From Kibdelosporangium persicum (GTDB lineage: Bacteria > Actinomycetota > Actinomycetes > Mycobacteriales > Pseudonocardiaceae): a stretch of 64,000 nucleotides of DNA. Below are positions 3,619-30,813 of this stretch, in pieces (the first letter of the stretch is position 1; each line of letters begins with the position of its first letter). A program made the translations under genes and the position numbers. The stretch lies in the NCBI RefSeq assembly GCF_013280595.1, contig NZ_JAAATY010000023.1, forward strand, positions 62,001 through 126,000, written 5' to 3'. The notes under the pieces were generated by a model. That model did not search any database. It was not told the origin of the DNA and worked only from the letters and a program-made list of their open reading frames with translations.

Positions 3619-4155
3619 GTGATCATCCACTTCGTGCACCAGTCGGTCGACGGCTTCATCGAGGGCCCGGACGGCGAGTTCGACTGGCCGGTGATGGGCC
3701 CGGAGATGTCGGCGTACGCCAACGCCTTGAGCCGCGACGCGGACACGTTCCTCTACGGCCGGGTCGTGTGGGAGATGATGTCGTCCTACTGGCCGCAGGC
3801 CGAGGAAATCTCCGACCACCCGCACGACCTGGAATTCGCGCCGATCTGGCGCGAGAAATCCAAGGTCGTGGTGTCCAGGACGCTGCCGGACCCCGGCGGG
3901 AACGCGCGCGTGGTGCGTGACCTCGCCGACCTGCGGGACATCCCCGGCACCCTGCTGCTGTTCGGCGGATCGGACCTCGCGGCCGGGCTGACCGAGGCCG
4001 GGCTGGTCGACGAGTACCACATCTTCGTGCACCCGGCCGTGCTCGGCGGCGGCAAGCCGGTCTTCAAGGACCCCAGCCGGCGTGTCACTCTCGACCTGGT
4101 GGAGTCGCGGGTGCTGGACGCCCAGGCCGTGCTGCTGCGCTACCGCCGCCGCTGA
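3619..4155 (+). CDS. dihydrofolate reductase/RibD C-terminal family protein
   Basis: A 178-residue protein of the RibD_C/DHFR-like fold, NADPH-dependent reductases of uncertain substrate common in actinomycetes. The start is GTG 3619 with GAAGGAG about 7 nt upstream. Typical features: N-terminal FVHQSVDGFIEGPDGEFDW, the LYGRVVWEMM stretch, LLLFGGSDLAAGLTEAGLVD (nucleotide-binding Gly-rich turn), and the HPAVLGGGKPVF segment. The gene stands alone. It is unlikely to be essential folate DHFR, because its length and motifs match the stand-alone paralogues. Confidence 0.88.
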   Translation: MIIHFVHQSVDGFIEGPDGEFDWPVMGPEMSAYANALSRDADTFLYGRVVWEMMSSYWPQAEEISDHPHDLEFAPIWREKSKVVVSRTLPDPGGNARVVRDLADLRDIPGTLLLFGGSDLAAGLTEAGLVDEYHIFVHPAVLGGGKPVFKDPSRRVTLDLVESRVLDAQAVLLRYRRR

Positions 4156-9113: not shown

Positions 9114-9923
9114 TCAGGTGTCGTGCCCCAGAGCGGCCAGCGCTGCCGGGATGTTGACGTAGTCGCGCAGGTGGGCGATCTCACCGTCGCGCACGGTGAG
9201 CACAACGATGTTGGGAAGCGCGAACTCGCCGGTGATCGCGCTGGTGCCGAGCGCTTCCTGTTCGACGATGATCGTGTCCGGGTCACTGGTGGCGTGGACG
9301 GCCAGCGTGCGGTAACGCTCGTACCTCAAGGGATTGTCCTGCCACCCCGCGGAAATCCAGGTCACGATCTCGTCCCGGCCGGTAAGCCGGGACGGCAGGC
9401 CAGGCCGGGTGAACGGGAACTCGTGCACCGCGTCGGCCGCGTACACGCGCCTCATGTCATCGGCGGACTGGGTGATGGAGGCTTGGCGGAAACGCTCCAG
9501 AACCTCGCGCGGACCGACTCCTCGCACGCCGAGGGGCGCACGTCTGGCGCTCACCTTGCGGTGGCTGATCTTCCAGCCGTCGGGCCCGCGTACGACGACG
9601 TCGTCGTAGACCACGCTGCCGGATGTCCCGTCGGCCTGGATGCCGATTCCTTTGGAGTGGACTCGTGCCGAGCGGTCGTCGATCCGTGTGATCACGATGT
9701 TGGTGACATGATGGCCGACCGGGTTGGCGCTGCCCAGTGCCAGCGCGGCTTCCCGCAAGGCCGCGGTTCCGTGTAACGAGCCGAAGCCGAAGTCCTTCAC
9801 GTCGTACGTGATATCCGGGGTGAACAGCTCGCCTGCCTGGTCCAGTTCGCCCGCGTCGATGAGGTGGCCGTGCAGGTTGATCAGGTCGGTGATGTCGATC
9901 CGGTCTTGTTCCGTCAACGCCAT
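9114..9923 (-). CDS. tandem NTF2/SnoaL-like domain protein
   Basis: A 269-residue cytoplasmic protein made of two NTF2-like cone folds: residues about 1-130 (LTEQDRIDITDLINLHGHLIDAGELDQ, ITYDVKDFG, HVTNIVI, GWKISHRKV) and about 135-265 (REVLERFRQASITQSADDMRRVYA, HEFPFTRPG, VEQEALGTS, IAHLRDYVNIP). Such folds serve as small hydrolases, isomerases or dehydratases; the reaction cannot be named. It is transcribed away from a TetR regulator (intergenic 163 bp with a palindrome copy and an operator-like dyad), so TetR control is plausible. Confidence 0.8.
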   Translation of the reverse strand: MALTEQDRIDITDLINLHGHLIDAGELDQAGELFTPDITYDVKDFGFGSLHGTAALREAALALGSANPVGHHVTNIVITRIDDRSARVHSKGIGIQADGTSGSVVYDDVVVRGPDGWKISHRKVSARRAPLGVRGVGPREVLERFRQASITQSADDMRRVYAADAVHEFPFTRPGLPSRLTGRDEIVTWISAGWQDNPLRYERYRTLAVHATSDPDTIIVEQEALGTSAITGEFALPNIVVLTVRDGEIAHLRDYVNIPAALAALGHDT

Positions 9924-9953
9924 GAGGCTGCCCTCCGTGCTCCGGGTCAGTCA

Positions 9954-10011
9954 CGCCCCCTCGTGAGTGGTTGTCAGGGTTAGAACCCCGATAACCACTC
10001 ACGAGGGGGCG
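9954..10011. repeat. 46-bp palindrome, copy 1 (core 9960-10005)
   Basis: First of seven copies. The core is 46 bp: left arm beginning CTCGTGAGTG, centre GGTTAGAACC, right arm ending CACTCACGAG. Here the arms are extended by CGCCCCC/GGGGGCG, giving a 58-bp inverted repeat. It lies between divergently transcribed genes (NTF2-like and TetR), so it cannot be only a shared terminator. Confidence 0.9.
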
Positions 10012-10029
10012 CACGTCCTAAGATGAGGC

Positions 10030-10062
10030 ATGGTCCGGTTAGCCTGGACGGTAACGGACCAT
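10030..10062. promoter_or_regulatory. operator-like dyad before tetR
   Basis: ATGGTCCG-(G)TTA on the left and TAACGGACCAT on the right form an inverted repeat with a single bulged G. It sits 25 bp before the TetR start in the divergent intergenic region, the normal position for an autoregulatory TetR operator. An in-frame ATG inside it (10030) is therefore not the likely start. Confidence 0.5.
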
Positions 10063-10086
10063 GTCCCCGGTCAGCAAGGAGGGATG

Positions 10087-10650
10087 ATGCGCGCGGACGC
10101 CCGGCGTAACTACGAACAGCTGCTCGGACAGGCGAAGATCGCGTTCGCCGAGTTCGGCACGGACGCCTCCCTGGACGAGATCGCCCGGCGGGCAGGGGTG
10201 GCGAGCGGGACGCTGTACCGGCATTTCCCCACCCGGCTGGACCTCATCGAGGCGGTCCTCGCCGAGCGGATAGCCGAACTGGCCGCCCTCGGTCGCCAGT
10301 TGCTGACGGCCGAGGACGAGTTCGAGGCGTTGTCCACCTGGCTGCGGGCCGCGCTCGACCACGGCCTGACCTATCGGGGTCTGTCGGCCACCGTGATGAA
10401 CGCGGCCCTCGACCGGGGAACCGATCTGGCATCCACGTGGCATGCCGAACTGTTCGAGGTGGGAGCCGCGTTGCTGGCGCGCGCACGGCGATCAGGCACG
10501 ATCGTCGCCGACGCGCACGACGCGGACGTGCTCAAGATGATCGGTGCCATCGCCTGGGCCGCCCACGACGCCCCAGACAGCTCCGCCCAGGCCAGCCGCC
10601 TGCTCGTCCTGCTGCTGAACGGACTACGTCCCCGCAGCGTCCAGCAATGA
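10087..10650 (+). CDS. TetR-family transcriptional regulator
   Basis: DNA-binding repressor of about 187 residues. The N-terminal helix-turn-helix reads ASLDEIARRAGVASGTLYRHF; the C-terminal part is a helical ligand domain ending in LLLNGLRPRSVQQ. Of two adjacent ATG codons (10084, 10087), the second has the better distance (4 nt) from GGAGG at 10078. The frame is open back to 10030, but that ATG lies in a dyad that looks like its operator. The divergent NTF2-like gene is the likely target. The gene is followed after 20 bp by palindrome copy 2. Confidence 0.88.
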   Translation: MRADARRNYEQLLGQAKIAFAEFGTDASLDEIARRAGVASGTLYRHFPTRLDLIEAVLAERIAELAALGRQLLTAEDEFEALSTWLRAALDHGLTYRGLSATVMNAALDRGTDLASTWHAELFEVGAALLARARRSGTIVADAHDADVLKMIGAIAWAAHDAPDSSAQASRLLVLLLNGLRPRSVQQ

Positions 10651-22751: not shown

Positions 22752-23432
22752 TCAGGCCCGCGAACGGTACAACCAGCGCACATCCCGGCTGAACGACCAC
22801 AACAGTGCGCCTAATGCGACGGCCGTGATCAGCGACGACGTCCAGACCGGGAACAAGCCCGAAGCGGCGGCGACCAGGATGATCCCCTGCATGGCGGCCA
22901 CGGTCTTGCGGGCCATGCTGTGCGGCAACGCTTTGTTGAGCCACGGCAACGCCCAGCTCGCGGCCACGAACACGTACCGCATGGCGCCGATCAGCAACAC
23001 CCACGGCCCCAGTGAGTGGGCCACGAACACGCTCAGGATGAGGATCAGGAACGCGTCCACCTCCATGTCGAAGCGTGCGCCCAACGGCGTCGCAGAACCC
23101 GTGCGCCGCGCGATCTGACCGTCGATCGCGTCGCCGACCAACGCGACCGTGGCGATGACGGCGAGCAGAAGCAACGGCACAGGCCGCCAGAACGAGTCGA
23201 CGACGAGGGCCGTCACGCTCCCCACAAGCGCGGCTCTGGCGAGAGTGACGCGGTTGGCCGCTCCCACGCTCGTCGCGTCGGCCCGGAACAAGGCTGTCGT
23301 CACCATGCCGCCGAGCACGACCGCGTAGGTCGCACCCGCCAGCCACCCTTCAAAGCCCAGCGGAGTGACCGTCGCCAGCACAGTGACCAGCACCAACTGT
23401 GCGACCACGGCCACAAAGGGCTCGACGGCCAA
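22752..23432 (-). CDS. CDP-alcohol phosphatidyltransferase family protein
   Basis: Membrane enzyme of 226 residues that moves a phospho-alcohol from a CDP-activated donor to an acceptor alcohol. The family motif D-x2-D-G-x2-A-R-x8-G-x3-D-x3-D is complete: Asp101, Asp104-Gly105, Ala108-Arg109, Gly118, Asp122, Asp126. About six hydrophobic helices. TTG 23432 is selected because GGGAGG lies 6 nt before it and the protein then starts at the first helix; the frame is open far upstream but that is antisense to the dehydrogenase. It is divergent (51 bp) from the cluster beginning at 23484 and may supply a lipid or phospho-headgroup step. Confidence 0.85.
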   Translation of the reverse strand: MAVEPFVAVVAQLVLVTVLATVTPLGFEGWLAGATYAVVLGGMVTTALFRADATSVGAANRVTLARAALVGSVTALVVDSFWRPVPLLLLAVIATVALVGDAIDGQIARRTGSATPLGARFDMEVDAFLILILSVFVAHSLGPWVLLIGAMRYVFVAASWALPWLNKALPHSMARKTVAAMQGIILVAAASGLFPVWTSSLITAVALGALLWSFSRDVRWLYRSRA

Positions 23433-23483
23433 CGCAGCCCTCCCACTTAAGGTGATCGAAAGCCTGAGTGGAGGGTAGAACGG

Positions 23484-24452
23484 ATGGAACGGGCGTTCTG
23501 GGTGCGTTCGGCTGGTCACGGCGAGGTTGAGCCTGTTCATGTGCATCAACACGCGCCGGGCGAGGTGTTGGTTCGAACTCTTTTCAGCGGGGTGAGCCGG
23601 GGGACCGAGACACTGGTCTTCCGGGGTGAGGTGCCGCGGAGCCAGTGGGAGGCGATGCGGGCGCCGTTCCAGGAGGGTGACTTTCCCGCGCCGGTCAAGT
23701 ACGGCTACCTCAACGTCGGTGTGGTCGAGGACGGACCCGCCCACCTCACCGGGAAAACCGTGTTCTGCCTCTATCCACATCAGACCCGTTACGTCGTGCC
23801 GGCCACGGCGGTGACGGTGGTTCCGGACACCGTTCCCGCCGGGCGGGCGATCCTGGCGGGCACGGTCGAGACCGCCGTGAACGCCGTGTGGGACGCCGCG
23901 CCGATGGCCGGCGACCGGATCGCCGTGATCGGGGCCGGCATGGTCGGCGCGTCCGTGGCCAAGGTGCTGGCGGGTTTTCCCGCCGTCCGAGTCCAGTTGG
24001 TCGACTCCGATCCGGCGAAGGCCGGGATCGCGGCGGCGCTGGGAGTCGAGTTCGCCACGCCGGGACAGGCCAGGGACGGCTGTGATCTCGTCGTGCACGC
24101 CAGCGCGACCGAGGCGGGTCTGGTCCGGGCGCTGGAGCTGCTCGCCGAGGACGGCGAGGTGATCGAGATGAGCTGGTACGGCGACCGGCGGGTGAGTCTG
24201 CCGTTGGGCGAATGGTTCCACTCGCGCCGGTTGACCATCAGAGCGAGCCAGGTGGGAGCCGTCGCGAAGGCGCGGCGCGGCAGCCGCGGCTATGCCGACC
24301 GGCTCGCTGTGGCCCTCGACCTGTTGGCCGACCCGGGGTTCGACGCGCTGATCACCGGGGAATCCCCCTTCGACGAGTTGCCTCGGGTGATGAGTTCTTT
24401 GGCCAATGGTGAACTGCCTGGCCTTTGCCACCGTATTAGGTACGACGGGTGA
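23484..24452 (+). CDS. MDR-superfamily dehydrogenase, first gene of the cryptic pterin-type cluster
   Basis: A 322-residue medium-chain dehydrogenase. N-terminal GroES-like part ([19 protein letters not shown]), Rossmann fold with GAGMVG at 150-155 and the acidic NAD(P)-site residue in [10 protein letters not shown]. The catalytic-zinc cysteine position is occupied by Ser/Gly (FSGVSRG), so it may act without zinc. ATG 23484 has GGAGGG upstream. It opens a tightly overlapped operon: MDR, PTPS homologue, GT4, methyltransferase, UPF0104, GTP cyclohydrolase II. Its substrate is unknown. Confidence 0.85.
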
Positions 24453-24481
24453 CGATTCGAACCGATTGGGAGGGCCCCCGG

Positions 24482-24892
24482 GTGTTCAGCATCACCGTCC
24501 GCGATCACGTCATGGTCGCTCACAGCTTCCATGGCGAGGTTTTCGGACCCGCGCAGCGGCTGCACGGCGCCACGTTCGTCGTGGACGCCACGTTCAGCCG
24601 GCCCGAGCTGGACGACGACAACATCGTCGTCGACATCGGACTCGCCACCGAACAGCTCAAGGACGTGCTCTCGCCGCTCAACTACCGCAACCTGGACGAC
24701 GAGCCGGACTTCAAGGGCGTGAACACCTCCACCGAGTTCCTCGCCAAGGTGATCGCCGACCGGCTGGCGGACCGGATCGGCGAGGGCAAGCTCGGCGAAG
24801 GCGCCCGCGGACTGTCCGAAATCACCGTCACACTGCACGAGTCGCATGTGGCGTGGGCGAGTTACCGGCGATCACTGGAACCGTCGCCGTGA
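24482..24892 (+). CDS. PTPS/QueD-fold protein lacking catalytic residues
   Basis: A 136-residue T-fold protein. GTG 24482 ([15 protein letters not shown]) is chosen over 24449 because GGGAGGG lies just upstream. Canonical PTPS/QueD enzymes have a Cys and an HGH zinc pair; here the first His is kept (AHSF), the Cys region is GEVFGPAQR, and the pair reads RLHGATF, so one zinc ligand and the nucleophile are absent. A C-terminal Glu in TLHESHVAW (pterin anchoring) remains. This matches my memory of SCO6650 of Streptomyces coelicolor, whose structure was solved and which lacks PTPS activity. It probably binds a pterin or pyrimidine intermediate. Confidence 0.88.
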
Positions 24893-25941
24893 TCACCTTT
24901 GTTGTCCCTGGCGACATCGACGACCAGACGGTACCGAGCGGCGGCAACGTGTACGACCGCCGGATGAGCCGCGCGCTCGGTGCCCACGAGGTCGCGGTCG
25001 CCGGGACATGGCCGACACCGGACGAGGCGGCTCGTCAGGAGCTGGCGAGCGCCCTCGCGGATCTCGACGACGGCGCCACCGTCCTGATCGACGGGCTCGT
25101 CGCGTGCGGTGTCCCGGAGGTCGTCGTGCCGCAGGCACAACGGTTACGCATCGCAGTGCTCGTGCATCTGCCGCTGGCGGACGAGACCGGCCTCGAACCT
25201 GACCTCGCCACCGAGTTGAACACCCGGGAACGGGAGACGCTGCACGCCGCGGGTATGGTCATCGCGACCAGCCCGTGGGCGGCGCGCCGGATCGTGTCGC
25301 ACCACTGGCTTGACGCGGACCGTGTCCACGCCGTGCCGCCGGGCACCGACCCCGCGCCGCTCGCACCGGGCACAGACGGGCGCTCGCGGCTGCTCTGCGT
25401 GGCCGCGGTGACGCAGCGCAAGGGCCAGGACCGCCTGGTCGAGGCCCTGGCGGAGGTCCGTGACCTGCGGTTCGAGTGTGAGCTCGTCGGCTCGTTGCGG
25501 CGCGACACCGACTACGTGCTGCGGCTGCACGAGATGATCAAGGAGTGCGGACTGGCCGACCGGGTCACGCTGGCCGGTCCGAAGACGGGCGCCGAGCTGG
25601 AAGCGAGTTACGCGGCGGCGGACCTGTTCGTGCTGCCGTCGCACACCGAGACGTACGGGATGGTCCTGACCGAGGCACTGGCTCGGGGAATCCCTGTGCT
25701 GGCAACGAGAGTCAGCGCGATGCCGGAAACCGTCGGGCGTGCGCCCGACGGGACCGTGCCCGGCATCCTCACCTGGAAGTTCGCCGACGCGCTGCGCCGG
25801 TTCCTGACCGACGCGCAGTTGCGGGACGGAGTGCGCGCCGCGGCTCGCGCCCGGCGGGAGACGCTGACGGACTGGGACGCCGCCGCGCGTGAGCTGGCCG
25901 ATGTACTGGCCGACTTGGAGGAACCGGCATGTCGGCGATGA
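24889..25941 (+). CDS. GT4-type glycosyltransferase
   Basis: A 350-residue GT-B glycosyltransferase. N-terminal acceptor domain ([13 protein letters not shown]), hinge, and C-terminal nucleotide-sugar domain with [37 protein letters not shown] and the E-x7-E region [20 protein letters not shown] 24889 overlaps the preceding stop (GTGA). It would attach a sugar to the pathway product or a lipid carrier; donor unknown. The following methyltransferase begins inside its 3' end. Confidence 0.9.
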
Positions 25942-26735
25942 GCAACCGCACCACGTATCCGGCCGAGTGGCTGTCGCTGCGCGAGGACGCGGACGCGGCG
26001 GCCAGGTCGGCCGGACTGGTCGAGCCGCTGCGGGCGTACCTCGGTGACCGGCCCGGCCTGATCATCCGGGACCTCGGCTGCGGCATCGGCTCGATGGGCC
26101 GGTGGCTGGCCGGCCGGCTGCCGGGGCCGCAGCACTGGATCCTGCACGACCGTGACCCGGGCCTGCTGTCGCGTGCGGTCGCCGGGTTGCCGCGGACCGT
26201 CACCGTCACCGGTGAACTGCAGGACATCACCCGGCTGCGGGCCACCGACCTCAGCGGAACCTCGCTGGTGACCGCGTCGGCACTGCTCGACCTGCTGACC
26301 GCGGACGAGATGGCCGAGCTGGTCGGGGCCTGCGCCACGATCCCCGTGCTGTTCACGCTGTCGGTGGTCGGCCGGGTGGAGTTCGAACCGGCCGACGCGC
26401 TCGACGGCGAACTGGTCAAGGCGTTCAACGCCCACCAGCGGCGCACGGTCGAAAGACGCCGCCTGCTCGGCCCCGACGCCGTGGACACCGCCGCCGAACT
26501 CTTCCGACGACAAGGAGCGACCGTGCACCGCAGGCCCAGCCCGTGGCGGCTTGGCGCAGGCGACGCCGCACTGATCACCGAGTGGCTGCGTGGCTGGGTG
26601 GCAGCCGCGGTGGACCAGCGGCCCGGACTCGCCGAGCACGCCGAGGCGTACCTCGGCCGCAGGCTCGGGGACTCCGGCCTGCGAGTCGTCGTCCACCACG
26701 AGGACCTGCTCGCGCTGCCGGCAGGTGCCCCGTGA
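25929..26735 (+). CDS. class I SAM-dependent methyltransferase of the cluster
   Basis: A 268-residue methyltransferase. SAM motif I is IRDLGCGIGSMGRWLAG at about 46-62, the acidic residue is in ILHDRDPGLLSRA, and TASALLDLLTADEM forms the post-IV region. ATG 25929 has GGAGG 7 nt upstream and overlaps the glycosyltransferase by 13 bp; the next gene starts in its stop codon. Substrate unknown, presumably a cluster intermediate. Confidence 0.85.
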   Translation: MSAMSNRTTYPAEWLSLREDADAAARSAGLVEPLRAYLGDRPGLIIRDLGCGIGSMGRWLAGRLPGPQHWILHDRDPGLLSRAVAGLPRTVTVTGELQDITRLRATDLSGTSLVTASALLDLLTADEMAELVGACATIPVLFTLSVVGRVEFEPADALDGELVKAFNAHQRRTVERRRLLGPDAVDTAAELFRRQGATVHRRPSPWRLGAGDAALITEWLRGWVAAAVDQRPGLAEHAEAYLGRRLGDSGLRVVVHHEDLLALPAGAP

Positions 26736-27646
26736 AGAAGGTGTGGGCGTGGGCGCGGCTGCTGGCCGGCGCCGGAATCCTCGTCGCGCTTTTCCTCCAG
26801 CTGGGTACCCAGACCTTCGTGGACGGGCTGCGCGCGATCACCGTGGGTGAGGTCCTCGCGGCGCTCGGGATCGGACTGGCGACCACAGTGCTCAGTGCGT
26901 GGCGCTGGTGCCTGGTCGCTCGCCGGCTCGGGCTGCGGCTCTCGCTTCCCCGTGCGGTGCTGGACTACTACCGCGCGTTGTTCCTCAACGCGGTGCTGCC
27001 CGCGGGCGTTCTCGGTGACGTGCAACGTGCCGTCGAACATGGACAGCAGGAAGGAGACCTCGGCCGAGGCGTCCGAGCGGTTGTCCTGGAACGGATCGCG
27101 GGCCAGGCCGTGATCATCGTCGCCGGGGTCGCCGTGCTGCTCGCGGTTCCGTCCCTCGGTCTTCCCCGTGACATCATCCTGATCGTCCTCGGCGCACTCG
27201 CTGTGATCGCGGCCGCCTTCGTGGCCGGGAAACGCTGGGCGCGCAACAACACCGGGCTGTCAAGGACCATCGCGGACATCCGGGCGGGGCTTCTTGCCCG
27301 TAACGCGTGGCCCGGAATCACGCTACTGTCGGCAGCAGCACTGGCCGGGCACATCTGCCTGTTCGTGGTGGCGGCACAGGCCGCCGGATCGACAGCGCCG
27401 ATCGCCCAGCTGGTTCCGCTGATGGTGCTGTCGTTGCTCGCGATGGGGCTGCCGGTGAACATCGGAGGCTGGGGGCCGAGGGAAGGCGTGGCCGCGGTGG
27501 TGTTCGGTGCCGCCGGTCTGGGCGCCGCCCAGGGACTGACCACAGCGGTGGTGTACGGAGTGCTCGCGCTGGTCGCGAGCCTGCCCGGGGCCGGAGTGCT
27601 GATACTGCGCGCGCCGGTGCTGCGGAGATTGGACAAGGCACTATGA
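26732..27646 (+). CDS. UPF0104/lysylphosphatidylglycerol-synthase-like membrane protein
   Basis: A 304-residue polytopic protein with about eight helices, resembling the flippase-like transmembrane half of MprF (UPF0104). Family traits: ARLLAGAGILVALFLQLG at the start, RALFLNAVLPAGVLGDVQRA (conserved loop), and LPVNIGGWGPREGVAA in the later half. There is no aminoacyl-transferase domain. GTG 26732 overlaps the methyltransferase stop; the cyclohydrolase starts in its own stop (ATGA). It may move a lipid-linked product across the membrane; that is inference. Confidence 0.85.
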   Translation: MKKVWAWARLLAGAGILVALFLQLGTQTFVDGLRAITVGEVLAALGIGLATTVLSAWRWCLVARRLGLRLSLPRAVLDYYRALFLNAVLPAGVLGDVQRAVEHGQQEGDLGRGVRAVVLERIAGQAVIIVAGVAVLLAVPSLGLPRDIILIVLGALAVIAAAFVAGKRWARNNTGLSRTIADIRAGLLARNAWPGITLLSAAALAGHICLFVVAAQAAGSTAPIAQLVPLMVLSLLAMGLPVNIGGWGPREGVAAVVFGAAGLGAAQGLTTAVVYGVLALVASLPGAGVLILRAPVLRRLDKAL

Positions 27647-28263
27647 CGGAACTTGCCGGCTTCACCCGACGAGCGGCCGAGACACGGCTTCCCACCCGGT
27701 ACGGTGACTTCACCGCGATCGGATACCAGGACCCGGCGTGCGCGATCGAACACATGGCGCTGGTGTACGGCGACATCACCGCCCGTGACCCGTTGACGAG
27801 AGTCCATTCCGAATGCCTGACCGGTGACGTGTTCGCGTCGACCAGGTGCGAATGCGGCGACCAGTTGTCCGCGGCGATGAAGGCGATCGTCGCCGATGGC
27901 GCGGGAATCGTGATCTACCTGCAGGGCCACGAAGGCCGGGGGATCGGCCTGCTGGCCAAGCTGAAGGCGATGCGGTTACAGGAGGACGGCCTGGACACGG
28001 TGGACGCCAACGTGGCGTTGGGACTGCCGGTGGACAGCCGTGACTACCAGGCGGCCGCCGACATCCTGCAGGACCTGGGCGTTCCCGCGATCCGATTGCT
28101 GTCCAACAACCCGCACAAGGTGGAGTCGCTTTCGCAGTACGGAATCCGGATCTCCGAGCAGGTTCCGCTGCTGATCGACGTGAACGACGACAACCTGCCG
28201 TACCTGAAGGCCAAGCGGGAGCGGCTGGACCACTACCTCCCCCAACTCGACGACATCCGGTAA
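27643..28263 (+). CDS. GTP cyclohydrolase II homologue, Met-for-Tyr variant
   Basis: A 206-residue GTP cyclohydrolase II. Zinc site Cys58, Cys69, Cys71 (SECLTGDVF...CEC), GHEGRGIGL phosphate loop, the VDANVALGLPVDSRDY block and the RLLSNNPHKVE C-terminal signature. In E. coli RibA the catalytic-site Tyr105 lies in the K-x-R-A-Y segment; the aligned residue here is Met110 (KLKAMRLQEDG). In S. coelicolor SCO6655 a Met at this position was reported to stop the reaction at the formylated pyrimidine (FAPy). I infer the same product. A creatininase-type amidohydrolase lies next door. It is the last gene of the operon; riboflavin is probably not its purpose. Confidence 0.92.
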   Translation: MTELAGFTRRAAETRLPTRYGDFTAIGYQDPACAIEHMALVYGDITARDPLTRVHSECLTGDVFASTRCECGDQLSAAMKAIVADGAGIVIYLQGHEGRGIGLLAKLKAMRLQEDGLDTVDANVALGLPVDSRDYQAAADILQDLGVPAIRLLSNNPHKVESLSQYGIRISEQVPLLIDVNDDNLPYLKAKRERLDHYLPQLDDIR

Positions 28264-28320
28264 ACCCCCTCGTGAGTGTTTATCCGGGTTCTAACCCTGA
28301 TAAACACTCACGAGGGGGTT
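28263..28320. repeat. 46-bp palindrome, copy 4 (core 28269-28314)
   Basis: Fourth copy, centre GTTCTAAC (opposite orientation to copies 1-3), with arms extended by AACCCC/GGGGTT to 58 bp. It fills the whole interval between the stop of the cyclohydrolase (28261-28263) and the stop of the convergent creatininase (28321), so it could serve as a two-way terminator. Confidence 0.92.
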
Positions 28321-29016
28321 TCAGGCGAGGGCGGTCAGGACGGCCGCGAAGGAGGTCACCAGGCTTGCCAGGACGTCGCGGCCTTTCTCGGCCGTGGCAC
28401 GCGACGGCAGGCCGATGACGCCGGACCGCGTGTAGGCCTGAAGCCCCAGTGTCAGCATGTGGTCACGGTTGTCCGCGAGGTGGTCGTGCTGGGCGTAGTC
28501 GGCCTTCACGACCTCCGGGTGAGCGTGCAGCAGAATGGACACCTCGAGCTCGCCCGCGTGCATGTCGCTGGCCATCGGCGTCTCGATGCCACCGGCCGTC
28601 CTGGCGTTGTTCCAGTCCACTTCGGTCGGGAACAACGCCATCCCGGTCGATTCCTGGACCACGTTGCCCAGCACGTAGTTCCCGCCGTGCCCGTTGACCA
28701 GGACGAGCTTGTGCACGCCCGACTGCCGCAGCGACGCGGCGATGTCCCGTACCACGGCGTACAACGTCGGCGCCGAGATGCTGACGGTGCCGGGCCAGGC
28801 CGCGTGTTCATGGGAGCACGAGATGGTGATCGGCGGCAGTTCGAGGAGCGGGTAGGCGGTGCTCAACGCGCGGGCGACGGTGGAGGCGATGATGGTGTCG
28901 GTCGCCAACGGCAGGATAGGACCGTGCTGCTCATGGCTGCCGACGGGCAGGATCGCGACCTGCGGTCGCTGGTTGCGCACGTCGACTGTCGTGGTCAGTG
29001 GCAGGAACTGCGTCAT
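28321..29016 (-). CDS. creatininase-family amidohydrolase
   Basis: A 231-residue metal-dependent amidohydrolase. The predicted metal ligands are all present: Glu29 and His31 in GSHEQHG, Asp40, His110 in VNGHGGN, and a Glu in DMHAGELE (151-158). Relatives include creatininase, mycofactocin MftE and archaeal ArfB, which removes the formyl group of FAPy after a GTP cyclohydrolase. Beside a FAPy-type cyclohydrolase, a deformylase role is the simplest hypothesis. It is second in a minus-strand pair after the transglutaminase-like gene (8-bp gap) and faces the cyclohydrolase across palindrome copy 4. Confidence 0.88.
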   Translation of the reverse strand: MTQFLPLTTTVDVRNQRPQVAILPVGSHEQHGPILPLATDTIIASTVARALSTAYPLLELPPITISCSHEHAAWPGTVSISAPTLYAVVRDIAASLRQSGVHKLVLVNGHGGNYVLGNVVQESTGMALFPTEVDWNNARTAGGIETPMASDMHAGELEVSILLHAHPEVVKADYAQHDHLADNRDHMLTLGLQAYTRSGVIGLPSRATAEKGRDVLASLVTSFAAVLTALA

Positions 29017-29024
29017 GTCACCCT

Positions 29025-29855
29025 TCAGGCGATCGCTTCCTCGCGGTGCCGCGCCGTGTTCAGCACTTTAGCCGGGACACGGATCCGCTCGTCGTGTGCC
29101 AGCAGGCGTTTCAGCTCGTCGGTGGGTGCGCCGGGGTGCTCGGTCAGGGTGGCCAGGTGGTCGAAGAACGCCATGTCGACGGGATCTGCCGGCTCGGGCA
29201 TGATGCCCCACGCGTCCCACGGCAGCAGCGGGGTGCCCAGCAGCGCCGCGGCGTCGCGCATCATGTTGCCCGCGATCCACCAGTAGCCGGTCTCGTTGAG
29301 GAAACTGAGCCCGAACGTGTCCGGGTCCTTCTCGCCCGCGCGGCACAACTGCCACGCCGTGCCGGCCGTCAGGAACTTGTCCCGCGGCACGTCCGTGACG
29401 TCGAAGTCGATCGGGAACTTCTCCTTCTGCACGTCGTCGATCTGGCTGTCGACCAGGACCCAGCGGGACCCGTTCCAGTACTCGCAGACCCAGTGGTCCT
29501 CGTGCGACCCCTCAGTGAAGTACGAGCCGAACCCGCAACGCGCCCGGGCCGAGATCCCGCGCGACTGCAGGATCGAGACGAGCAGCACGGTGAAGTGGCG
29601 GCAGTTGGCGGCAGTTCGCTCGCCGGGCGAGCGGGCCACGCCGAGCGGCCGGTCGTCCTCGCCGACAATGGCCGACAGCAGCTCCTCCACCGGCCTGATG
29701 TGCACCGTCTCGCGGTCCTGTTCGGACAGTTCGACGTCGTAGAAGTGGGCCAGGTGCTCGTGGATCAGCAGACCGTGACCGACCGCGGTGAGTCCTTCGA
29801 TGTCCTGGGGCAGCGCGTCGAACAGGCCGGCGTTGCGGCCGGGAGACGTCAACAT
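29025..29855 (-). CDS. transglutaminase-like domain protein
   Basis: A 276-residue protein with a papain-like transglutaminase core. Triad: Cys85 in AANCRHFTVLLVSILQSRGI, His121 in SHEDHWVCEYW, Asp136 in WVLVDSQID. The C-terminal half (FGLSFLNETGYWWIAGNMM) is family specific. ATG 29855 is selected; ATG 29909 in frame would overlap the divergent nucleoside hydrolase start. It is co-transcribed with the creatininase. The enzyme could form or cleave an amide bond in the pathway product; no direct evidence. Confidence 0.83.
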   Translation of the reverse strand: MLTSPGRNAGLFDALPQDIEGLTAVGHGLLIHEHLAHFYDVELSEQDRETVHIRPVEELLSAIVGEDDRPLGVARSPGERTAANCRHFTVLLVSILQSRGISARARCGFGSYFTEGSHEDHWVCEYWNGSRWVLVDSQIDDVQKEKFPIDFDVTDVPRDKFLTAGTAWQLCRAGEKDPDTFGLSFLNETGYWWIAGNMMRDAAALLGTPLLPWDAWGIMPEPADPVDMAFFDHLATLTEHPGAPTDELKRLLAHDERIRVPAKVLNTARHREEAIA

Positions 29856-29867
29856 GCCGTCGATAGT

Positions 29868-29882
29868 GGCGGAATTTCCGCC
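29868..29882. promoter_or_regulatory. 15-bp palindrome in a divergent promoter
   Basis: GGCGGAATTTCCGCC is a perfect palindrome about a central T. It lies in the 52-bp gap between the divergent starts of the transglutaminase-like gene and the nucleoside hydrolase, and could coordinate both. Confidence 0.45.
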
Positions 29883-29907
29883 GGATTCGCAACTATTGTG
29901 GCGAAGC

Positions 29908-30813
29908 ATGACCGATGTGGTGCTCGACTGCGATCCCGGCCACGACGACGTGTTCGCCATGCTCCTGGCGGCCGCGCATCCCGCCGTCCGCCTGCGCGCG
30001 ATCACGACTGTCGCCGGAAACGGCCCACTGGGCCAGGTCACCCGAAACGCGCTCAGGATCTGCGCGCTGGCGGGTATCGACGTCCCCGTCGCGGCCGGGC
30101 TTTCCCAGCGGGGAACCGGGAACGCGCCGTCGATTCACGGCGAAAGCGCGCTGGACGGCGCGGATCTGCCGGAACCCGCGGACGTGCCGGCCGACGAGGA
30201 CGCGGTGTCGTTGACCGAACGACTGCTTGACGAAGGACCGTTGACGATCATCGCGACCGGCCCGCTCACGAACGTGGCGGCGCTGCTGCGCAGACGGCCG
30301 GATCTGCGGCCGTCGATCGTGTTCATGGGCGGCAGTTGCGGCCGCGGGAACTGGCGGCCTTTGGCGGAGTTCAACGTCTGGGCCGATCCCGAGGCCGCGG
30401 ACGTCGTGCTGACCAGCGGCCTGCCGGTCACGATGTGCGGGCTGGACGTCACCCACCAGGCCACCGCGACGCCGGACGTGTTCGACAGGCTGCGGGAAAT
30501 GGCGACGCCGTTGGCCGGCACGCTGGCGGATTTGCTGCGGTTCTTCGCATCCACGTACGACGAGGTGTTCGGGATGCCGGATCCGCCCGTGCACGACCCG
30601 GTCGCGGTCGCCGCCGTCGCCGAACCCGGCCTGCTGACGATGGTCGACGCGCCGGTGGCCGTGGAGCTGACCGGGACGCATACCCGTGGCGCCACCGTGG
30701 TGGATTTGCATGGCGTGACAGGAAAACCGGCCAACGCGCGGATCGCGGTGGGACTTGATCGCGTGAGGTTCTGGGACGTGCTGCTCAGTGCTGTCGAACG
30801 ACTTGGCCGATAG
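29908..30813 (+). CDS. inosine/uridine-preferring nucleoside hydrolase
   Basis: A 301-residue nucleoside N-ribohydrolase. The calcium/ribose motif is LDCDPGHDDVFAMLLAAAHP at the N-terminus, with TTVAGN, IATGPLTNVAALLRR and FMGGSCGRGNW, NVWADPEAA, and a late HDPVAVAAV segment carrying the metal Asp. It cleaves ribose from nucleosides. Beside a GTP-derived pathway it may remove ribose from a pyrimidine or pterin riboside, or simply salvage. ATG 29908 is chosen. Its 3' end overlaps the convergent MocR gene by 29 bp. Confidence 0.92.
   Translation: MTDVVLDCDPGHDDVFAMLLAAAHPAVRLRAITTVAGNGPLGQVTRNALRICALAGIDVPVAAGLSQRGTGNAPSIHGESALDGADLPEPADVPADEDAVSLTERLLDEGPLTIIATGPLTNVAALLRRRPDLRPSIVFMGGSCGRGNWRPLAEFNVWADPEAADVVLTSGLPVTMCGLDVTHQATATPDVFDRLREMATPLAGTLADLLRFFASTYDEVFGMPDPPVHDPVAVAAVAEPGLLTMVDAPVAVELTGTHTRGATVVDLHGVTGKPANARIAVGLDRVRFWDVLLSAVERLGR

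Follow-up and report, generated by a model that had tools for sequence, protein, structure and literature searches.

A gene module shared by actinomycetes, Pseudomonadota and haloarchaea that may turn an early riboflavin-type intermediate into a modified pyrimidine or pterin

A 64,000-nucleotide stretch of the actinomycete Kibdelosporangium persicum (contig NZ_JAAATY010000023.1, positions 62,001 to 126,000 of the forward strand; hereafter the window) carries eight adjoining genes that recur jointly across Actinomycetota as a conserved module. They encode a CDP-alcohol phosphotransferase (CDPOH), an oxidoreductase of the medium-chain dehydrogenase/reductase family (MDR), a protein of the 6-pyruvoyltetrahydropterin synthase fold (PTPS), a family 4 glycosyltransferase (GT4), a methyltransferase, a flippase-like membrane protein (UPF0104), a GTP cyclohydrolase II (GCH2) and a creatininase-family protein. 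The MDR-PTPS core is common to two domains of life, being present also on plasmids of Pseudomonadota and haloarchaea, a spread that an earlier note on this DNA, made from the sequence alone, had overlooked. We consider it rather probable that the locus is an inter-domain module that turns an early GTP-derived, riboflavin-type intermediate into a modified, probably glycosylated and methylated, 2-amino-pyrimidine or pterin product. The gene set and two rules of distribution, one relating the type of GCH2 to the presence of the creatininase and the other relating a RibD-type reductase to the type of RibD, come directly from comparison of sequences; from these we infer the chemistry, and the steps that would follow the reduction are put forward as hypotheses. 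Open-access literature searches found no paper describing the module by title or abstract.

Conservation was assessed at the best 80 of at least 562 coding PTPS relatives (most of them from Streptomyces), a family being scored as present in a locus at 50 bits. At the 66 loci of this set that span at least 20 kb, CDPOH, MDR, PTPS, GT4, methyltransferase and UPF0104 are each present without exception (66/66), and GCH2 and the creatininase occur in 64/66, the remaining two loci (L036 and L065) carrying a RibD-type reductase; over the whole set, CDPOH and MDR are each found in 79/80. The first six families are absent from all 17 comparison regions, which were picked for RibD, GCH2 or creatininase genes and so contain those and are no control for them. 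Among 43 further loci (L114-L116 and L142-L181, one lying outside the class and one genome counted twice), GT4 occurs in 43, MDR in 41, UPF0104 in 36, CDPOH in 34, the methyltransferase and GCH2 in 31 each, a reductase in 22 and the creatininase in 16. A more distant family (code f19) is represented by twelve loci: MDR, PTPS and a reductase are present at all 12, GT4 at 11, the methyltransferase at 10 and GCH2 at one, and none of CDPOH, UPF0104 and the creatininase reaches 50 bits at any of them. Searches with PTPS matched 39 of 396 genomes of the phylum (E <=1e-10) and, in an overlapping set, 57 of 394 genomes of the class (E <=1e-8); among the phylum matches that were opened, five are QueD-type proteins with a complete Cys/His site. 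The nearest relative of the window PTPS among the matches listed is that of Kibdelosporangium philippinense (93%).

The earlier note had described six overlapping or nearly touching plus-strand genes, a divergent CDP-alcohol gene, a transglutaminase/creatininase pair and a nucleoside hydrolase, an order that the open reading frames (ORFs) and the Pfam/NCBIfam matches bear out. The co-occurrence of 8 to 11 genes across actinomycetes, which it proposed to check, holds for the eight named above, the genes for GT4, the methyltransferase, the membrane protein and the CDP-alcohol enzyme being regular companions, and fails for two others: the nucleoside hydrolase occurs in 2/80 loci (the near relatives L034 and L035) and the transglutaminase in 1/80, and neither in the 43 further loci. 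These two genes probably lie outside the module, and neither deribosylation by the nucleoside hydrolase nor a role for the transglutaminase is supported. Together with a FAD monooxygenase, TetR and MocR they were rejected as module parts, being shared by near relatives only among the compared loci. Separately, a stand-alone gene of the cytidine deaminase type lies within about 3 kb of a reduced MDR-PTPS-GT4 set in two genomes (L115:13077-13583 in G008, and G639:C6:3065-3529).

The first rule concerns the cyclohydrolase. When 110 GCH2 proteins from the loci and that of the window were aligned to E. coli RibA, the window protein had Cys at all three zinc columns (C54, C65 and C67) and Met at the column of Tyr105 (KLKAMRLQE). 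Tyr is replaced at this column in 92 GCH2s, the window's included (Met in 78, His in 7, Leu in 6 and Gln in 1). A creatininase that is at least about 59% identical to that of the window lies in the examined stretch of 91 of these 92 loci; in the exception (L175, genome G742) the orthologue, of 61% identity, is 13 kb away from the PTPS, giving 92/92 overall. Tyr-type GCH2s number 19, namely two unlinked own paralogues (L001, L003), L128 and L130 (canonical PTPS, no MDR), and 15 from module loci; with the first four left out of the Tyr count, the creatininase is present at 0/15 module loci. Whole-genome searches of 17 module genomes with a Tyr-type GCH2 or a linked reductase found no creatininase above 38% identity at E 1e-15, and the module GCH2s of Agrobacterium and Rhizobium sp. 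SL42 have Tyr, with no creatininase match within the stretch. Spoonamore and Bandarian reportedly described the Tyr-to-Met change in SCO6655 of Streptomyces coelicolor, and loss of the Tyr is said to stop GCH2 at the formamidopyrimidine (FAPy). Because the creatininase accompanies every non-Tyr GCH2 and none of the Tyr-type module enzymes, it is most likely a FAPy-phosphate deformylase, and we read it as finishing the step that the non-Tyr GCH2 would have dropped; the route from GTP to FAPy and its deformylation by the creatininase, as proposed in the earlier note, is supported by this agreement at all compared loci.

The window creatininase belongs to PF02633 (E 2e-61), and its motifs GSxEQHG, DT, HGGN and HAGE, which we take to hold the metal ligands, align. 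It scores 39.4 bits on the NCBIfam ArfB model (cut-off 180) and 137.5 bits on the MftE model TIGR03964 (cut-off 172), and orthology to ArfB or MftE is not supported by scores under the cut-offs. There are other creatininases in these organisms: the window genome has a second, distant member of the family (L187, C1:228037-228744), and another genome of the window's family (L215, about 9511-10233) has a 56-57% identical one with no module, adjoining genes without a clear Pfam family.

The second rule concerns the reductase. The RibD model was run against 38 genomes: a canonical, deaminase-first RibD scores over the cut-off in 23, and a reductase-deaminase ("inverted") arrangement, as fused or adjacent genes, is found in 15. 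Of the 19 module genomes that have canonical RibD, 16 carry a RibD_C reductase linked to the module, as against none of the 14 with inverted RibD; for eight of the 14 (family f5, Streptomyces-type) the unlinked call comes from the positions of RibD-model matches only. Both the linked and the unlinked state occur within one genus (code g8). The linked stand-alone reductases are of three types (a, b and c), none with a deaminase domain. In a reductase tree, inverted RibD groups with type b and with the reductase of L041 but not with types a and c; the Pseudomonadota proteins of type c have a loose placement. Canonical RibD deaminates before it reduces, and its own reductase domain should therefore not act on the diamino compound; the contrast between 16/19 and 0/14 thus suggests that the probable starting point of the module is ribityl-diaminopyrimidine phosphate in its reduced, un-deaminated form (DARIPP). 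Scores of 128 bits on the archaeal reduction-first model against 120 on the RibD C-domain model for a type b protein (L114), and of 137 against 130 for an inverted RibD (L190), compared with 126 against 190 for a canonical RibD (L218), weakly favour the DARIPP reading; all three proteins stay under the cut-off of the archaeal model. The earlier note had overlooked the RibD-type reductase, linked or unlinked, which points to an intermediate that has a ribityl chain and is not deribosylated.

The window genome (10.35 Mb) has three GCH2 genes: that of the window (Met), a RibBA within a RibE-RibBA-RibH operon (L186, Tyr) and an unlinked gene (L184, Tyr). RibH and RibE are lacking among the 30 window ORFs scanned and lie on another contig. 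Given this separate operon, whose GCH2 retains Tyr, it is unlikely that the window cyclohydrolase supplies riboflavin only. No canonical RibD scores over the cut-off in this genome, where the best RibD-model match is a reductase-deaminase fusion on another contig (L185:9631-10656); L190:10830-11969 is a second example of this swapped order, and a Tyr-type GCH2 is found close to an inverted RibD in seven regions of family f5. That the unlinked reductase-deaminase belongs to the module alone was considered and rejected: in the genomes concerned no canonical RibD reaches the cut-off, so that this enzyme probably serves riboflavin synthesis as well.

Outside Actinomycetota, a protein search with the MDR of L119 matched 30 plasmid records, including Rhizobium, Agrobacterium, Methylosinus, Thiodictyon and haloarchaea, and 13 plasmid regions with a module-type MDR were opened. 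Agrobacterium and Rhizobium sp. SL42 carry a flippase-like gene, CDPOH, GCH2, MDR, PTPS, GT4, a methyltransferase and a RibD-family reductase; by blastp, Pseudomonadota module proteins match their counterparts in the window or L119, the window methyltransferase being 34-37% identical to the Pseudomonadota ones. The set of Haloarcula halophila comprises CDPOH, MDR, PTPS, a methyltransferase and, adjoining MDR, a GTP cyclohydrolase III (PF05165), which is a FAPy-forming enzyme; in Natrarchaeobaculum sulfurireducens an annotated GTP cyclohydrolase IIa adjoins MDR. Plasmid pNG700 of Haloarcula marismortui has CDPOH, MDR, GT4, a methyltransferase-like gene and a creatininase 5 kb from MDR, and between MDR and GT4 (L206, about 9980-10390) a PTPS-like stretch without an annotated gene, split over two frames. 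Haloarchaeal MDR, PTPS and CDPOH match their actinomycete counterparts by blastp. Two further genes were seen near these modules. A cytochrome b561-type gene stands beside the module reductase in Agrobacterium (L204) and Thiodictyon (L205), both by Pfam, and in Rhizobium (L213), by annotation and similarity; a sulfatase-like protein is encoded near the module at 24 loci, among them many non-Streptomyces ones and those of Agrobacterium and Rhizobium (e.g. L114:6257-8041), Pfam Sulfatase being found for the L114 protein and not for that of L204.

The remaining proteins bear on the later steps. The window PTPS is degenerate, with HGA for HGH and H-A-H-A at the His, Cys, His and His columns, and its sole match in the Protein Data Bank (PDB) at E 0.001 is SCO6650 (3d7j), in line with the earlier description of a degenerate PTPS related to that protein. 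In a table of 133 scored non-canonical rows (five canonical and three partial rows being excluded), the catalytic Cys is replaced in 133/133 and the third zinc ligand lost in 121/133, the 12 f19 rows retaining the zinc ligands. The region of the Glu that presumably anchors the pterin reads HESHVA in the window protein and WESP in canonical rows. In MDR, SxGTE stands where we take the zinc ligand to be, with no zinc Cys in 26/26 aligned rows; the PDB entries matched by the MDR profile include xylitol, sorbitol and galactitol-1-phosphate dehydrogenases as well as those for threonine, butanediol and other substrates, the matches lying for the most part in the half that binds the nucleotide. GT4 scores best on the NCBIfam model for MshA (87 bits, cut-off 462), and the nearest solved relatives of its profile are Tll1590 and then the D-inositol-3-phosphate and phosphatidylinositol-mannoside glycosyltransferases. 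CDPOH, UPF0104 and the sulfatase-like protein suggest a membrane-bound or exported product. Lone PTPS genes of the module type (74-79%) also occur, at L044 (one of the 80 loci, 16 kb) and L207, with the rest of the module absent from the stretch; that of L207, on a Streptomyces anthocyanicus plasmid, adjoins MEKHLA-domain, cupin and MBL-fold genes.

Taken together, these parts suggest the following route. The GCH2 with Met for Tyr would halt at the formylated FAPy phosphate, and the creatininase would take off the formyl group to give 2,5-diamino-6-ribosylamino-4(3H)-pyrimidinone 5'-phosphate; we regard these two steps as very likely. A RibD-type reductase, which in the window genome is most likely the unlinked fusion at L185, would then turn ribosyl into ribityl by reduction, with no deamination, and so yield DARIPP, a step that we hold to be likely with somewhat less assurance. 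MDR, a distant relative of polyol dehydrogenases, may oxidise the ribityl chain, most simply at C2', whereupon ring closure by the 5-amino group would give a dihydropterin; the C1' reduction and the C2' oxidation would jointly substitute for the Amadori step of GTP cyclohydrolase I. The PTPS fold, with its catalytic residues gone and its Glu region kept, may bind or shape the ring, the methyltransferase and GT4 would decorate it, and CDPOH and UPF0104 (elsewhere also the sulfatase-like protein) could tie the product to a lipid or export it. A pterin product has not quite an even chance in our estimate, and its linkage to a lipid is a more tentative suggestion still.

The chief alternative is that the product stays open, as a ribityl-diaminopyrimidine with no pterin ring, MDR and PTPS acting on the side chain or on another partner and GT4, the methyltransferase and CDPOH building a pyrimidine-headed glycolipid. 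The evidence for the early steps (the GCH2 residue and the reductase/RibD rule) fits this equally well, and the loss of the PTPS Cys and third zinc ligand, the constancy of CDPOH and UPF0104 at loci of at least 20 kb and the sulfatase-like genes all speak for it; however, the PTPS fold and Glu region are kept in the aligned lineages, which suits a ring-type ligand, and on chemical grounds ring closure should come readily to a 5-amino group next to an oxidised chain. We give it some weight while thinking it rather unlikely. An improbable proposal is that the locus provides an extra riboflavin route, for example in stationary phase, amid unrelated neighbours. The early enzymes are indeed of the riboflavin type, and the reductase-deaminase is probably also a riboflavin enzyme in 14 module genomes including the window's; yet the module genes come without RibH and RibE, for which the window genome has its separate operon, and MDR, PTPS, GT4 and the methyltransferase stay together at the f19 loci although GCH2 is found at one of 12. 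In addition, a study of S. coelicolor gives an anticorrelation between predicted riboflavin flux and the expression of SCO6655 (-0.61) and SCO2687 (-0.52) (PMC2853524).

Two other explanations carry very little probability. The route of the earlier note, in which FAPy is formed and deformylated, deribosylated by the nucleoside hydrolase and then glycosylated and methylated as the free base, draws on the adjacency of that hydrolase to the module in the window and two near relatives; its scarcity at the other loci tells against this, and recruitment of a reductase suggests that the ribose is kept and then reduced. Fainter still is the case for a queuosine/7-deazaguanine pathway with PTPS as QueD, the name that annotation pipelines give it (many plasmid records have 6-carboxytetrahydropterin synthase). 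The window PTPS scores 38 bits on the NCBIfam QueD model against a cut-off of 89 and the catalytic Cys is replaced throughout the scored non-canonical rows, grounds on which the QueD reading was rejected; QueE, QueC and QueF were not seen in the annotated regions opened, where no search was aimed at them.

Several observations weigh against the proposed DARIPP-to-pterin route itself. Both distribution rules rest on few evolutionary events, and Fisher values, which take no account of relatedness, were not read as probabilities. In a tree of trimmed sequences the Tyr and non-Tyr GCH2s form two sister clades, the 92 non-Tyr proteins being mostly from Streptomyces, and the creatininase rule therefore rests on about one evolutionary split, since kept through several gene orders; G607, which belongs to the window's family and has no module, carries a creatininase of 57% identity. 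G008, G639 and G710, which have canonical RibD and the module, show neither a linked reductase nor GCH2 in the stretch examined (about 12 kb for G639 and G710). The linked reductases score below the archaeal reduction-first NCBIfam cut-off, the RibD C-domain being the better fit for types a and c. The window also holds a distant RibD_C-family gene (3619-4155, plus strand, 178 aa) 19 kb upstream of the operon, of which two of the 14 RibD_C matches in the genome are pieces; its match to reductase queries is weak (E 0.001, 31 bits; NCBIfam 19 bits), and it was not counted as linked. The absence of CDPOH and UPF0104 from the 12 f19 loci means that lipid attachment would not be universal. Finally, the three haloarchaeal methyltransferases compared (L201, L202 and L206) and the H. 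halophila GT4 have no blastp match to the actinomycete proteins, L208 and L209 are without an annotated GT4, and L211 (Natrarchaeobaculum) is without an annotated PTPS.

The coordinates of the features in the window are collected below. The six genes from MDR to GCH2 (23484-28263), called from ORFs, Pfam/NCBIfam and sequence, overlap by 4 nt at 5/5 junctions and hence are probably one translationally coupled unit. The CDPOH translation has a readable DxxDGxxAR(x8)GxxxDxxxD signature, which we take to be the motif of CDP-alcohol phosphotransferases. The very stable hairpin that lies between GCH2 and the creatininase gene converging on it is a probable two-way terminator; a consensus terminator scan did not list it.

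Table. Features of the module region and its flank, in window coordinates
Feature	Coordinates	Strand	Basis
CDP-alcohol phosphotransferase (CDPOH)	~22752-23432 (start codon uncertain)	minus, divergent from MDR	PF01066
MDR oxidoreductase, SxGTE replacing Zn cysteine region; proposed ribityl-chain dehydrogenase	23484-24452	plus	Pfam/NCBIfam, alignment
PTPS/QueD-fold protein, Zn site incomplete, no catalytic Cys	24449-24892	plus	PF01242
GT4 glycosyltransferase	24889-25941	plus	PF00534
S-adenosylmethionine (SAM) methyltransferase, Methyltransf_25	25938-26735	plus	Pfam
UPF0104/LPG_synthase_TM flippase-like membrane protein	26732-27646	plus	PF03706
GTP cyclohydrolase II (GCH2), Met at E. coli Tyr105 position, putatively FAPy-forming type	27643-28263	plus	PF00925, alignment
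Hairpin between convergent GCH2 and creatininase	28261-28318	none	-50.4 kcal/mol, z -10.7 for 28255-28325
Creatininase-family protein, candidate FAPy-phosphate formamidase	28321-29016	minus, convergent with GCH2	PF02633
Transglutaminase-core protein	~29025-29927	minus	
Nucleoside hydrolase	~29908-30813	plus	

A close known parallel is the archaeal entry to riboflavin and deazaflavin, which uses GTP cyclohydrolase III, the formamidase ArfB and a reduction-first reductase. The proposed module route resembles it in passing through FAPy phosphate, formate removal and then, as we infer, reduction before deamination, and a GTP cyclohydrolase III or IIa lies beside MDR at two haloarchaeal loci; unlike it, the window has a GCH2 variant and a creatininase scoring below the ArfB cut-off, with MDR, PTPS, methyltransferase and GT4 instead of lumazine synthase. 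Both SCO6650 and SCO6655 lack, to our knowledge, a published pathway, and the literature searches made found none. SCO6650 is the orthologue of the window PTPS (3d7j), a comparison by single gene; the window GCH2 carries the Tyr-to-Met change reported for SCO6655, which was reportedly assayed years ago. The partner genes and their distribution are added here. Bacteria also have a creatininase-family FAPy-phosphate formamidase, the BrbF of Sinorhizobium meliloti, which is reported to deformylate the substrate proposed for the module creatininase (PMC9478397). The two are likened by described or proposed activity: BrbF serves riboflavin, whereas the module enzyme goes with a Tyr-less GCH2 and the PTPS module.

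More speculatively, and in our judgement rather unlikely as a whole, a pterin pathway common to Actinomycetota, Pseudomonadota and haloarchaea may take DARIPP to a dihydropterin by C1' reduction and C2' oxidation instead of by GTP cyclohydrolase I, the product being methylated, glycosylated and in some lineages membrane-anchored, and serving perhaps as an electron carrier (given the nearby cytochrome b561 genes of Rhizobium, Agrobacterium and Thiodictyon). In haloarchaea this might be the source of the orphan halopterins. Sulfohalopterin, phosphohalopterin and solfapterin are glycosylated archaeal pterins, on which the literature searches found nothing, and glycosylated pterins have reportedly been obtained from haloarchaea including the species now called H. 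marismortui, where pNG700 carries a module region. This connection is guesswork: no gene was tied to these compounds in the literature read, and on pNG700 the PTPS frame is broken.

The distribution rules suggest the first enzymes of the pathway and its probable branch-point metabolite, and what was a cryptic gene set becomes a short list for direct enzyme assays. If the proposal holds, the module could represent a second way in which pterin-type compounds arise and give the FAPy branch a new role.

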